From an uncultured Sphingomonadales bacterium (GTDB lineage Bacteria > Pseudomonadota > Alphaproteobacteria > Sphingomonadales > Sphingomonadaceae), in contig CALMZE010000069.1 of assembly GCA_937870585.1 (NCBI GenBank), positions 1 through 37,516 on the forward strand: a stretch of DNA of 37,516 bases. Direction: 5' to 3'. Positions 5,639 to 32,715 of this stretch are shown here, one piece after another (position 1 is the first letter of the stretch; every line of letters starts with the position of its first letter). The position numbers and the translations under genes were made by a program. Under the pieces are notes generated by a model. The model was given only the letters and a program-made list of their open reading frames with translations, was not told the origin of the DNA and did no database searches.

Positions 5639-5726
5639 GCTCGTCCTGAGCTTGTCGAAGGACTGACTTTCCTCACTCCGCTCAAGCAAAGAAAAGACAG
5701 TGCTTCGACAAGCTCAGCACGAACGG
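5639..5726. repeat. Family A palindromic repeat copy 1 (GAGCTTGTCGAAG type)
   Basis: Left arm at 5639-5662 (core GAGCTTGTCGAAG) and right arm at 5701-5726 (core CTTCGACAAGCTC) are inverted and nearly perfect, with a 38-bp spacer. The copy lies between the convergent emrB and nupC. The same core recurs at 21303, 22487, 25180 (single arm) and 32627. The repeat can form a long stem and may terminate both genes. Confidence 0.85.
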
Positions 5727-5737
5727 GTTTGGAAAAA

Positions 5738-21417: not shown

Positions 21418-21451
21418 GCCCTCCCCTAAAGGAGGAGGGGCTTATTATTTC
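21418..21451 (+). terminator. Possible terminator of the ABC exporter
   Basis: CCCTCCCCT..AGGAGGAGGGG forms an imperfect G/C-rich hairpin followed on the plus strand by CTTATTATTT. It overlaps the end of ccmI, which converges from the other side. The U-rich tail is short, so this is a moderate call. Confidence 0.45.
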
Positions 21452-22080
21452 ACCGGCTCAGCAGGCGCGTCCAACTGACCAATCTCAGCCAGTCGCCCTT
21501 TCAAATCCTCCACCCATTCGGCATCCTTGGGTGCGCGAGCGAGCAGCGCGCGCCAAACTTCGCCAGCCTGTTCGAGTTTGCCGGATTGGGCCAGCGCCAA
21601 ACCCATGAAGAAGGGCGGGCCGGGATGGTTGGGGGAGAGTTTGGCAGCCTTTTCGAAGGCATATTCCGCTGCGGGGCTGACCATGCCGCCGCTGTGCATC
21701 ACCAGCGCATTGCCCATGCCGACCCACAGATCGGCGCTGCCCGGATTGGATTTCACCGCATCCTGAAAGACGCCCACGGCCTGACGCGTTGCGCCAGCGC
21801 GGATCATCGCGTCAGTCAGCATCAGCACATTGCCTTCGCTGGAGAACTGGTTCTTTTCCATCTTCTGCACATCGGCCATCGACATTTCCGGCGCCTTGGC
21901 ATCGCGCGGCAGAGTGGGGGAGGCCGACAGGCTGGGGCTGCCCCAAAAGGCATAGCCCGCCAGCGCAACCATCATCGCCGCACCGGAGAGTTCGAGCCCC
22001 TGCCGGTCAATCTTGGCCACGCGCCACAGGATCAGCATCACCAGCGCGGCCAACAGGATCATCCACACCCAGCCCATCAC
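21445..22080 (-). CDS. ccmI: TPR cytochrome c biogenesis protein, CcmI/CycH-like
   Basis: A 211-residue protein with two N-terminal TM segments (about 3-19 and 31-48) and a periplasmic TPR domain (about 75-200; GVFQDAVKSNPGSADLWVGMGNAL, AFEKAAKLSPNHPGPPFFMGLAL). In cytochrome c maturation System I, CcmI presents the apocytochrome to the CcmF/CcmH haem ligation complex. It is the last gene of the ccm run and overlaps ccmH by 4 bases. It is shorter than classical CcmI (about 400 residues) but matches the short alphaproteobacterial form. Confidence 0.82.
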   Translation of the reverse strand: MMGWVWMILLAALVMLILWRVAKIDRQGLELSGAAMMVALAGYAFWGSPSLSASPTLPRDAKAPEMSMADVQKMEKNQFSSEGNVLMLTDAMIRAGATRQAVGVFQDAVKSNPGSADLWVGMGNALVMHSGGMVSPAAEYAFEKAAKLSPNHPGPPFFMGLALAQSGKLEQAGEVWRALLARAPKDAEWVEDLKGRLAEIGQLDAPAEPVK

Positions 22081-22589
22081 TTGGCCTTTCTCTTGCGGAA
22101 GCGCCCCCGCGCCAGCCAGACACCCAGAGCGAGCAGCAGCAGCGGCAGGATCCAGAGCGGGGCGGTGATGCCGGTCATTGGCGGCTCATAGCTGATCCAG
22201 TTGCCATAGCGTTCGATCAGCCAGGCGCGGATCGCTTCGGGCTTTTCACCGGCTGCAATGCGCGTGCGGATCAGGCTGCGCATGTCTCCGGCCAGATCGC
22301 TGTCGGAATCAGCGACTGATTGGCCCTGACACACAAGGCAGCGGATTTTCTCCATCAGCGCCTTGGCTTCATGTTCCTGCTGCGCATCCGGCAATTGCGC
22401 ATTCGCCCATTGCGCATCGGGCATCAGCGAGTCGGCTAGCGCGGGGGTGGCGATGAGGAGAAGGGCAGGCGCAATCAATCTCCGCAATCCTGAGCTTGTC
22501 GAAGGACCGTTTTTCGCTCTCACCCACATGCGCGAATGGGAGAACGGTGCTTCGACAGGCTCAGCACGGCGGGTCTGGAAATCGTTCAT
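22077..22589 (-). CDS. ccmH: CcmH thioredoxin-like apocytochrome reductase, with a repeat inserted before the signal core
   Basis: A 170-residue protein with the CcmH redox motif RCLVCQGQ (Cys84, Cys87), the following DMRSLIRTRIAAG helix and a C-terminal TM anchor (about 143-162). It reduces the apocytochrome Cys pair for haem attachment. The ATG at 22589 overlaps the ccmG stop by 4 bases, the pattern at every tested junction in this operon. Residues about 6-34, including RAEPVEAPF and NGPSTSSG, are encoded by a family A palindromic repeat that is in frame. The normal signal core (RRLIAPALLLIATPALA) starts just after it. A TTG at 22487-22489 might restart translation at the signal core. Confidence 0.88.
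   Translation of the reverse strand: MNDFQTRRAEPVEAPFSHSRMWVRAKNGPSTSSGLRRLIAPALLLIATPALADSLMPDAQWANAQLPDAQQEHEAKALMEKIRCLVCQGQSVADSDSDLAGDMRSLIRTRIAAGEKPEAIRAWLIERYGNWISYEPPMTGITAPLWILPLLLLALGVWLARGRFRKRKAK
22487..22574. repeat. Family A palindromic repeat copy 3, inside the ccmH 5' coding region
   Basis: Left arm 22487-22511 (TCCTGAGCTTGTCGAAGGAC) and inverted right arm 22543-22573 (GGTGCTTCGACAGGCTCAGC). The spacer contains a further CTCTCACCCA / TGGGAGA hairpin. The 88-bp copy occupies codons 6-34 of ccmH with no stop and without shifting the frame. Confidence 0.85.
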
Positions 22590-23113
22590 TGCGCGGCCCT
22601 GAGCGCGGCCATGATCTCCGGCACGTCTTCTGGGCGAATATCGCCAATATGCTGATAACGGATGATGCCGCGTCCATCGACGACGAACGTCTCTGGCACG
22701 CCGGATGATCCCAGCGCCATTTGCACGGCGGAATTCACGTCAGACCCGATCCGCTGATACGGATTGCCATTGCGCTTGAGGAAGCGGTCCACATCCTGCG
22801 GGCGGTCACGGATGGCGATGGCGTCGATCGGCACGCCTTTCCGCGCCATCTCTGACAGCACGGGCGCTTCGGCGATGCAGGGAATGCACCAACTGGCAAA
22901 GATGTTGAGCAGGCGCGGCTGGCCCTGCTGGAAGCTCGCGCTACCCAGTCCCGGCTGCGGCGCGTGCGCGGGCGGCAGCGAGAATTTGGGAAGCGGCTTG
23001 CCGATCATCTTGGACGTGATGGTGGTGCTCGACGGCTTGCTGAGGCCGACTGCCATCACGGCGAAGAACAGGCCGAACAGCGCCAGCGGAATCCAGAGCC
23101 AAGTGCGTTTCAT
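22586..23113 (-). CDS. ccmG: DsbE/CcmG thioredoxin-like protein
   Basis: A 175-residue membrane-anchored thioredoxin. One N-terminal TM segment (about 5-23) precedes a periplasmic thioredoxin fold with active site WCIPC (Cys76, Cys79) and the cis-Pro region GVPETFVVD. It keeps apocytochromes reduced for haem attachment. The ATG at 23113 overlaps the ccmF stop by 4 bases; an extended frame to 23230 lies inside ccmF. The stop overlaps ccmH by 4 bases. Confidence 0.92.
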   Translation of the reverse strand: MKRTWLWIPLALFGLFFAVMAVGLSKPSSTTITSKMIGKPLPKFSLPPAHAPQPGLGSASFQQGQPRLLNIFASWCIPCIAEAPVLSEMARKGVPIDAIAIRDRPQDVDRFLKRNGNPYQRIGSDVNSAVQMALGSSGVPETFVVDGRGIIRYQHIGDIRPEDVPEIMAALRAAQ

Positions 23114-25026
23114 GCGACCTCTCCCTTCGGCTTCAACTCGCGCCGCAGCCGTCCAATCATCGCCAGAAGACCGCCCAGCGCGATCAGGATGCCGCCAAAC
23201 CAGATCAGCATGACGAACGGTTTCCACCACATGCGGACCTGCCAGCGGCCATCGGGCTGATGCTTGCCGAGCACAAGGTAGAGCTGACCATCCCAGACGG
23301 TGCTGATCGCGGCTTCATTGGTTTCGGTGGGGGGCGAGCTGAAGGAGCGGGCTTGCGTCGATGAACTGATGAGCGTGTTGCCGCGCCGCGCTTCCATCGC
23401 GCCTTCCATGGCCGTCCAGTTGGGGCCAGCGATGGGCTGGACGTCCTTGAGCGTGACCGACCACGGCCCCACGGCGCGCGTTTCACCGACATTGATTGCC
23501 GTCAGCGTTTCCTTGGTGAAGGCGCTCTCGCTCGCCATGCCCGCCATGGAAATGGCGACGCCCAGATGCGAAATCACCATGCCCCAGATGAAGAGCGGCG
23601 TGCGGCGCAGATTGCGCTTCCACAGGGGCGCAAGGCTTGCCGCGCCCACGCCAATGGCGAGCACGATGCCAAGCAGTGGCAGAAGGCCAAGCCCGGGCGC
23701 CGCAATCACAACGGCCAGCAGGCTCGCCGCACCGAGCAAGATTGGCAGCGCCAGCCGCCGCGCCATCGCGCCCCATTCGTCGCGTCGCCAGCGCAGCACC
23801 GGGCCAGCGGCCATCACGGCAACAAGGATGAGCGCGAGCGGCCCGGTCGTCGCGTTGAAATAGGGGGGGCCGACCGAGAGCTTTTCGCCGGTCAGCGATT
23901 CGGCGATCAGCGGATAGAGCGTGCCGACCATCACGATGCCGAGAATGGCAGAGAGCAGCAGATTGTTCGCCACCAGCGCGCCTTCGCGGCTGAGCGGATC
24001 AAAGCGATTGCCTTCGCGCACCGTGCCGATGCGAAGGCCGAACAGTGCGAGCGCGCCGCCAATATAGATAGCGAGCAGTGCGAGGATGAATGCGCCGCGC
24101 TTGGGATCGACCGCAAAGGCGTGGACGCTCGTCAGAATGCCCGAACGGACAAGGAATGTGCCGACCATCGACATGGAGAAGGCGACCACGGCGAGCATCA
24201 CCGTCCAAGCGCGCAATCCGTCTCGCGTGGCAAGCACGGTGACCGAATGGAGCAGGGCGGTCGTCGCCAGCCACGGCATCAGCGAGGCATTCTCAACCGG
24301 ATCCCAGAACCACCAGCCGCCCCAGCCGAGCTCATAATAAGCCCAGTAGGAACCCGCGACGATCCCGAGCGTCAGGAATATCCATGCGATCAGCACCCAG
24401 GGCCGCATCGCGCGGGCGAAGGCGGGGCCAACCTCGCGCGTGATGAGTGCGCCGACCGCAAAGCTGAACGCCACCGACATGCCGACATAGCCGAAATAGA
24501 GCGTCGGCGGATGGAAGGCGAGGCCGGGATCTTGCAACAACGGGTTAAGCCCTTGGCCGGTTTCAGCCGCAGGATCCAGTCGCTCGAACGGGTTGGAGGC
24601 AAAGAGCAGGAAGGCGTAAAAGCCAATCGAAATCGCGGCTTGCGCGGCGAGCGTTGCCGTCAGGCTGGCAACTTTCAGCCGCTTCTCAAACAGCGCCACC
24701 GCGCCGCCCGCCACGCCGAGCACGGTGACCCAGAGCAGCATCGAGCCTTCATGGTTGCCCCATGCGCCTGCGAATTTGTAGAGCAGGGGCTTGTCCGGAT
24801 GGCTGTTCGCCGCGACGAGCTTGACCGACAGGTCGGTCTCCAGAAACACCCAGATCAGGCAGAGGAAGGAGAGCGCGACGGCGACCCCTTGCAGCACCGC
24901 GACCGGCTTGATGCTGGCATGGCCGCCTGCATCGGGATTGCGGATGCTGATGGCACCCAGCCCCAGTTGCAGCGTGGCCAGCGCGGCGGCGATCAGCAGC
25001 AGGATCAGGCCGAGTTCGGCGGTCAT
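23110..25026 (-). CDS. ccmF: Cytochrome c haem lyase subunit CcmF
   Basis: A 638-residue polytopic protein of usual CcmF length with about 15 TM segments. The haem-binding tryptophan-rich signature GWGGWWFWDPVEN lies at 234-246, with conserved His residues in nearby periplasmic loops (NHEGSMLLWV at 91-100, FHPPTLYFGY at 171-180). It joins haem from holo-CcmE to the apocytochrome. SD GGGAG sits 7 nt before the ATG. Between this gene and ccmE lie 196 bp filled by two repeat elements, the only break in an otherwise overlapping gene run. Confidence 0.95.
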   Translation of the reverse strand: MTAELGLILLLIAAALATLQLGLGAISIRNPDAGGHASIKPVAVLQGVAVALSFLCLIWVFLETDLSVKLVAANSHPDKPLLYKFAGAWGNHEGSMLLWVTVLGVAGGAVALFEKRLKVASLTATLAAQAAISIGFYAFLLFASNPFERLDPAAETGQGLNPLLQDPGLAFHPPTLYFGYVGMSVAFSFAVGALITREVGPAFARAMRPWVLIAWIFLTLGIVAGSYWAYYELGWGGWWFWDPVENASLMPWLATTALLHSVTVLATRDGLRAWTVMLAVVAFSMSMVGTFLVRSGILTSVHAFAVDPKRGAFILALLAIYIGGALALFGLRIGTVREGNRFDPLSREGALVANNLLLSAILGIVMVGTLYPLIAESLTGEKLSVGPPYFNATTGPLALILVAVMAAGPVLRWRRDEWGAMARRLALPILLGAASLLAVVIAAPGLGLLPLLGIVLAIGVGAASLAPLWKRNLRRTPLFIWGMVISHLGVAISMAGMASESAFTKETLTAINVGETRAVGPWSVTLKDVQPIAGPNWTAMEGAMEARRGNTLISSSTQARSFSSPPTETNEAAISTVWDGQLYLVLGKHQPDGRWQVRMWWKPFVMLIWFGGILIALGGLLAMIGRLRRELKPKGEVA

Positions 25027-25047
25027 ACGCTTACTCCCGCACGCATT

Positions 25048-25133
25048 GTGCTCCGGCCTTGTGCCGGAGCCCTGCGCGGGTTTGGCAAGCGTGTGTGCGA
25101 ACTGCCACAGGGCTCCGGCCTTCGCCGGAGCAC
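25048..25133. repeat. Family B palindromic repeat copy 2, inside the ccm operon
   Basis: Inverted arms GTGCTCCGGC..GCCGGAGCCC (25048-25072) and GGCTCCGGCC..GCCGGAGCAC (25111-25133). The spacer has TTTGGCAAGC and GCCACAG, matching copy 1 at 18077. It lies in the ccmE-ccmF gap, so a strong stem would interrupt the operon transcript. Confidence 0.8.
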
Positions 25134-25179
25134 AATTTGTGTTGACCCCGCGCTGCGTAAGTCGTGTACGACCCGAAAG

Positions 25180-25210
25180 AACGGTGCTTCAACAGGCTCA
25201 GCACGGCGGA
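25180..25210. repeat. Family A solitary right arm
   Basis: Positions 25180-25210 match the right arm of copy 3 (AACGGTGCTTCAACAGGCTC, then AGCACGGCGG) with one change in the CTTCGACA core (to CTTCAACA). No left arm is nearby. It is a decayed or half copy next to the family B element. Confidence 0.7.
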
Positions 25211-25222
25211 GCGTGTGTGTCA

Positions 25223-25654
25223 TTATTCCACCTTCCCCGTCTTGTGCATCTTGCCATCCATTTCCGGCGGCATATAGCGTTCGTCATGTTTGGCGAGGAT
25301 GTTATCCGCCACGAACACGCCGTCCGTGCGGAGCTTGCCTTCGGCGACCACGCCCGAATTTTCTTTGAACAGATCGGGCGCGATGCCGGTGAAGGTGACG
25401 GGCGTTTGCGCCTTGCCGTCTGTGACGGTGAAGGTGATCGTCACGCCGTCTGCCGCGCGTTTGATCGATTTGTCCGCCACCATGCCGCCCAGCCGCAGCG
25501 CCTGATCAGGGCCGGGGCGGGCCGCCGCGAGATCGGCGGGCGAATAGAAATAGGCCGCTTCATCCTTCATGGCAGACATGGCGAGCAAGACCGCGCCGAT
25601 CATCGCCGCAGTTGCCAACAGGATCAGCGTCAGCCGCTGGTTCTTCGCCTTCAT
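25223..25654 (-). CDS. ccmE: Haem chaperone CcmE
   Basis: A 143-residue protein with one N-terminal TM segment (about 8-27) and a periplasmic OB-fold. The covalent haem-binding His123 is in the AKHDERYMPPE signature with Tyr127 as the axial ligand position. It carries haem from CcmC to CcmF. The ATG at 25654 shares one base with the ccmD stop (TGATG), which supports coupling; a longer frame to 25840 runs through ccmD. It ends 196 bp before ccmF. Confidence 0.94.
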   Translation of the reverse strand: MKAKNQRLTLILLATAAMIGAVLLAMSAMKDEAAYFYSPADLAAARPGPDQALRLGGMVADKSIKRAADGVTITFTVTDGKAQTPVTFTGIAPDLFKENSGVVAEGKLRTDGVFVADNILAKHDERYMPPEMDGKMHKTGKVE

Positions 25655-32626: not shown

Positions 32627-32715
32627 CCGTTCGCCCTGAGCCTGTCGAAGGGCTGCCCTTTCTGGACACAAACGCACAAAACAAAGCAATGCTTCGACAG
32701 GCTCAGCACGAGCGG
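32627..32715. repeat. Family A palindromic repeat copy 4
   Basis: Left arm 32627-32653 (CCTGAGCCTGTCGAAGGGC core) and inverted right arm 32691-32715 (GCTTCGACAGGCTCAGCACG). It starts 2 bp after the ruvC stop and lies between convergent ruvC and pyrG. Confidence 0.85.

Follow-up and report, generated by a model that had tools for sequence, protein, structure and literature searches.

What is a dispersed palindromic repeat doing inside the reading frame of ccmH, between the start codon and the signal sequence of a conserved gene, and is it translated there? The question arose from a stretch of 37,516 nucleotides of an uncultured Sphingomonadales bacterium (contig CALMZE010000069.1 of assembly GCA_937870585.1, positions 1 to 37,516; hereafter the window), in which a first-pass annotation, made from the letters alone, had placed such a repeat in the ccmH signal region. 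We approached it by delimiting the repeat in its own genome, by surveying the corresponding junction across sphingomonads, and by comparing that junction with two neighboring ones.

A palindromic repeat within the ccmH leader

On the minus strand of the window, ccmE, F, G, H and I are closely packed, in that order. Read from an ATG that shares bases with the ccmG stop codon (AATGAACG), ccmH (22077-22589, minus strand) encodes 170 residues, of which residues 58-169 match the Pfam CcmH family (PF03918, E = 1.5e-35); the ATGA overlap of the two genes (22586-22589) is seen directly in the sequence, as the first-pass annotation had described it. The upstream partner ccmG (22586-23113, minus strand) is an open reading frame with a Redoxin match (PF08534, E = 7.4e-14), while the next gene after ccmH is a ccmI-like open reading frame with TPR matches (21445-22080, minus strand), which overlaps the ccmH stop (GTGATG), carries no insert in the window, and serves here as a control junction. 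The repeat element, a head-to-head pair of REP-like units on the minus strand at about 22482-22573, occupies codons 6-36 of ccmH in frame. On its 3' side come the signal core and the region of presumed cleavage (RLIAPALLLIATPALADS, 22428-22481, minus strand), placed by alignment with insert-free relatives. The leader as read from the overlap start is MNDFQTRRAEPVEAPFSHSRMWVRAKNGPSTSSGLRRLIAPALLLIATPALADS..., composed of MNDFQ, about 31 repeat residues and RLIAPALLLIATPALA, and the CcmH domain after it is intact. Three tandem 15-nt units are also visible in ccmH near the mature N-terminus (22381-22425).

The element is one of many. At E ≤ 1e-3 it gave at least 54 BLAST rows in its own genome, corresponding to at least 40 genome places once matches on both strands were joined (merged by hand), and these counts are lower bounds, as the search scored 40 of 181 candidates. 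Sixteen aligned rows, which represent 15 distinct copies (loci L004 and L006 hold one same copy), yielded the consensus CCG-tCGTCCTGAGCTTGTCGAAGGAC ... GTgCTTCGACAAGCTCAGcACGa-CGG, and comparison of the ccmH copy, whose outer tags are degenerate relative to this consensus, with the 14 other distinct copies set its size at about 92 bp. The earlier claim of a dispersed repeat lying in frame in ccmH was borne out, with the reading frame staying open across the element, but its extent had been drawn slightly too narrowly (22487-22574, codons 6-34, about 29 repeat-encoded residues). The hairpin proposed around the start of the frame was likewise recovered: the predicted mRNA fold of the insert reaches -67.2 kcal/mol (z = -4.4, with 0 of 200 shuffles equally good), its main stem begins 15 nt past the ccmG stop, and two of the three bases of the ccmH start codon sit in its basal helix. 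Elsewhere in the window a further full copy of the repeat is found at 5644-5735 and a partial copy at 32690-32715.

Extended ccmG-ccmH junctions across sphingomonads

We analyzed 263 loci, of which one without ccmG (L125) and one with a failed anchor (L234) were left out, giving 261 usable and 243 distinct ccmG-ccmH junctions. In the first locus set 58 of 60 genomes matched and the best 30 matches were taken, with 20 order-level loci analyzed apart; from the 63 loci of the second, L039-L069 were used and L070-L101, mostly non-sphingomonads, left out; in the third 246 of 249 genomes matched and 133 junctions were taken from the best matches; and two later sets yielded matches in 59 of 60 genomes and in 13 of 14. 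The nearest relatives of the window species among the matches listed showed at most 70% identity, and at most 65% within the genus. For each junction we recorded D, the distance between the stop of ccmG and the point where the CcmH signal ends, and called those with D ≥ 90 extended.

Uninterrupted homologues, which the first-pass annotation had suggested looking for, proved to pass from the overlap start straight into the signal core (e.g. VRLRLILFCLLGAFTLPLAAQ or MRRFLPLAALALAMSTPVLADS), and such unextended junctions make up 200 of the 243 distinct ones (median D 56). The other 43 are extended (D range 92-266; 39 of them at D ≥ 100), and all at the same point, so the earlier description of a repeat turned coding as uncommon was wrong in scale. 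When all 43 inserts were folded with less trimming than in an earlier test, which had clipped the right arm of some of them, 34 had z < -2 against 9 of the 200 empty joints, and 32 had z < -3 against 3 of the 200. The nine extensions that fell short of z < -2 (L274, L040, L187, L171, L106, L189, L053, L327 and L322) may include some that are not palindromes, or decayed ones; four of them, L274, L040, L187 and L322, even so share a sequence group with inserts that do fold, and the short leaders of L274 (FPAKAGIQS) and L322 (CLRRGAG) resemble what would be left of such repeats after decay.

Once the signal core had been removed, 35 of the 43 inserts fell into six sequence groups, leaving eight singletons that include the window insert. 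All six inserts searched for in their own genomes, that of the window among them, were dispersed repeats, with BLAST rows over both strands numbering, in the other five, at least 94 for L119 (genome G067), 35 for L122 (G205), 54 for L123 (G249), 44 for L158 (G202) and 51 for L180 (G125). Several inserts (L141, L119, L057) start with CGTCAT. A palindromic leader was not seen by eye in 17 CcmH-leader loci from other families of the order, drawn from a set of 20 in which L249, L252 and L256 did not read as CcmH, a sample too small to claim restriction to one family.

Reading frame and start codon of the inserts

The overlap start and the rest of ccmH share one phase across 42 of the 43 inserts (38 of the 39 with D ≥ 100), and the frame set by that start (frame 0) is free of stop codons in all 43 inserts, the other two frames being stop-free in 10 and 27. 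The kept phase and the open frame 0 weigh most in our reading of the overlap start as the likely working start. The exception in phase, L329, is a draft in which ccmH is apparently frameshifted in its core, with a stop inside its match; the ccmH frame is shifted both there and in L330, also of genus g64, perhaps through assembly errors. The same phase occurs in 198 of the 200 unextended junctions, which makes the overlap the ground state, and in 240 of all 243 distinct junctions the overlap phase is kept. L180, from the single-contig genome G125, has no in-frame ATG, GTG or TTG before the mature protein other than the GTG of the overlap. The 28 carriers with genome (G) handles are spread over 16 genera, and with one event per genus the chance of such phase-keeping would be (1/3)^16, about 2e-8 by our arithmetic.

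Judged from these sequence comparisons, the overlap start is most likely the one used, and the repeat would then be translated as a long n-region, with 14-71 codons standing ahead of the last 18 signal codons among 31 inserts measured. This favors the natural upstream start among the options that the first-pass annotation had listed. We also considered selection for charge in the used frame and rejected it: mean net charge over 30 inserts was 4.8, 4.4 and 2.5 in frames 0, 1 and 2, and the charge of frame 0 was the higher one in 18 of the 30 against frame 1 and in 19 against frame 2, which shows no clear preference.

Control junctions

The ccmF-ccmG set numbers 239 junctions, after exclusion of rows whose anchor was misplaced or that offered no usable end of ccmF; for ccmH-ccmI there were 90 usable loci. 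The ccmF-ccmG genes mostly overlap too, 227 of the 239 being in the same phase and followed by a membrane signal. A folded insert was absent from these 239 junctions, the 11 with D ≥ 90 having z between -1.6 and 1.6. At ccmH-ccmI, D ≥ 90 occurred in two of the 90 loci and a folded insert in one (L019), namely a REP similar to that of the window which is out of phase with the overlap and has the ccmI ATG after it, an arrangement that would be expected of a non-coding spacer. Fisher tests of ccmG-ccmH against ccmF-ccmG and ccmH-ccmI gave 3e-14 and 1e-5, values computed over non-independent loci. Repeated colonization was therefore confined to ccmG-ccmH among the three tight junctions examined. 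Our guess is that the preference for ccmG-ccmH reflects a greater tolerance of a long n-region in a cleaved signal peptide than in the membrane anchors of CcmG and CcmI.

Recurrence and evolution after insertion

The loci are related, so the junction counts above are not independent, and we mapped presence of an insert (D ≥ 100, 30 rows) onto a CcmG tree of 182 distinct junctions. The tree required 23 presence/absence changes, 12 of them forced by its starred branches. Shuffled labels required 28 changes on average, with 0 of 500 shuffles as low as 23; the insert label is thus more clustered than in 500 of 500 shuffles, and some inheritance follows from this. At a finer scale, group g53, which includes Rhizorhabdus histidinilytica, has seven of 13 loci filled and six empty, the occupants coming from at least three repeat groups, and genus g64 likewise mixes filled and empty sites.

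Where related loci share an insert, its fate after insertion could be followed. L045 and L300, both of g53, carry the same insert but are set apart by internal gaps of 45 and 18 nt, each a whole number of codons, and by seven substitutions, six of them at third positions (dN/dS 0.10). In the two insert sets of g64, dN/dS over the repeat was 0.44-0.91 (six pairs) in one and 0.64-1.44 (five pairs, the sixth undefined) in the other, and the single gap away from the trimmed ends was 6 nt. The g64 values indicate weak or no constraint on the peptide, which fits a tolerated passenger and is by itself no proof of coding; in two of the three groups tested, the peptide sequence appears nearly free to vary.

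A translated insert, a retained hairpin or a spacer

On the strength of these comparisons we consider it probable that the whole phenomenon is one of REP-like inserts entering in frame at the overlap and being read through as a long n-region of CcmH. REP-like palindromes would insert directly 3' of the ccmG stop codon and, since ccmG and ccmH overlap and ccmH initiates there, would land inside ccmH, past the start codon but ahead of the signal core. The inserts found are those that are stop-free and keep phase, as the comparison shows. The ribosome would then read through the repeat and make CcmH with a long n-region, a product to which the frame evidence points, and with signal core and CcmH domain unchanged the protein presumably still gets to the membrane.

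The rival that survives best, although we hold it to be unlikely, is that the hairpin is kept and not the peptide, such that a stem right past the ccmG stop, by slowing or stalling ribosomes, would set the balance of CcmG to CcmH at the price of translating the repeat. In E. coli, ribosome stalling is reported for REPs that lie no more than 15 nt from a stop codon (Liang 2015, cited in PMC12306157), and among 30 inserts the main stem begins that close to the ccmG stop in 14 (median distance 16.5); it begins farther away in the other 16, and a stem within 15 nt was accordingly rejected as a rule. Predicted stem pairs were kept in 72-90% of cells in two g64 groups, against 32-54% when the partners were slid, though such keeping may stem from re-insertion or gene conversion within one repeat family. 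The confinement of repeated colonization to this junction also speaks for a hairpin role, but 200 of the 243 junctions manage without an extension. A regulatory effect of the hairpin on CcmG:CcmH output is possible. That the joint is both a landing and a keeping site, where palindromes are recruited as a useful translated hairpin (for the CcmG/CcmH ratio or for slower CcmH export) and a regulatory or leader module is re-invented from selfish repeats, we regard as doubtful.

We give much less credence to the repeat being an untranslated spacer, with ccmH starting downstream at the TTG of codon 35, the ATG of codon 21 or similar. PMC3733652 argues for untranslated status of many N-terminal REPs, and several inserts (e.g. 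L034, L191, L226) do offer an ATG near the core. Against this stand the kept phase and the absence of stops, as well as L180 with its single possible start and L019, whose insert at ccmH-ccmI is out of phase as a spacer should be. The TTG restart proposed in the first-pass annotation is unlikely in view of the kept phase and of L180; it had been put at 22487-22489, whereas the TTG in question is codon 35 (22485-22487) and lies inside the element, so that the stretch from element to core offers a single start codon, the TTG of codon 38. An assembly artefact, which the annotation had also raised and which the 233-contig draft state of the window genome might invite, is scarcely credible when the same architecture occurs with different repeats in the single-contig genomes G125, G126 and G128.

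Relation to known repeats

Read-through of an in-frame insert, our preferred reading, has a close likeness in the Rickettsia palindromic elements (RPEs; Ogata and Claverie, via PMC3733652), which are dispersed palindromes in frame in conserved genes and probably translated. The ccmH repeat is likewise inserted in frame in a gene that has uninterrupted homologues, and its phase and lack of stops suggest RPE-like translation; N-terminal RPE-1 proteins are reported to be expressed (PMC3733652). As described in that paper, RPEs sit in various Rickettsia genes, whereas here several sequence groups in at least 16 genera are found at one operon joint and tied to its stop/start overlap.

The same source describes REPs inside genes and close to gene 3' ends in Sphingomonas wittichii, and CGTC-REPs of alphaproteobacteria, including that species, as head-to-head dimers mostly near the 3' ends of upstream genes, which our element resembles, as do the inserts L141, L119 and L057 with their initial CGTCAT. 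CGTC marks the left end of the consensus built from the aligned copies, where the ccmH copy has lost the tag (AATC there, CGTG at the other end), but by the definition in PMC3733652 the stem has 8-9 bp starting with complementary AT, and the window family reads CGTC-CTGAG; we therefore do not file it as a CGTC-REP. Compared with REPs as described in PMC12306157, it has many similar copies dispersed in the genome and is palindromic and stem-loop forming (z = -4.4); it measures about 92 bp as an inverted pair with shorter single units, REPs of E. coli being 14-40 nt long, and the window copy lies inside ccmH and is not extragenic. The E. coli stop-proximal REPs, whose bearing on translation is treated in PMC12306157 (after Liang 2015), share the stem near a stop codon, with the difference that here the stem would itself be translated if the next gene starts at that stop.

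Miniature inverted-repeat elements (MITEs) are short and non-autonomous as well, though for the ccmH copy a target duplication was not established nor a mobilizing enzyme identified. A Y1 transposase (PF01797) was not found in the window's own genome, which is 96% complete, and is present in 8 of the 28 carrier genomes; RAYT was rejected as the mover, being absent from the other 20, the window's own genome included.

Coding REP and RPE elements are already known, while a single joint colonized repeatedly in frame was not met in our limited literature search, in which no paper on repeats at ccmG-ccmH turned up by title or abstract start among open-licence full texts. The 12-23 state changes on the tree, together with filled and empty sites within one genus, amount to a replicated natural experiment on whether N-terminal REPs code, a matter that PMC3733652 leaves in doubt. 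The junction illustrates how a nominally 'intergenic' insertion site can become coding where a stop codon and a start overlap, and the inserts suggest that the n-region of a bacterial signal peptide can absorb tens of arbitrary residues. For annotators the warning is that such leaders should not be trimmed to a downstream start.

Further observations at the window locus

Between ccmE and ccmF (25023-25226), the window holds a half copy of the ccmH-type repeat and a second palindrome (GTGCTCCGGCGAAGGCCGGAGC...). An open reading frame of 66 codons spans these repeats; its start shares a TAATG with the ccmE stop and its end an ATGA with the ccmF start, and through this bridging frame translation may remain coupled despite the insert. 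The ATGAC present at either end is perhaps a target duplication. Six genomes of the window genus (G002, G004, G006, G008, G009 and G010) gave two CcmH matches each, which suggests a second ccmH copy.
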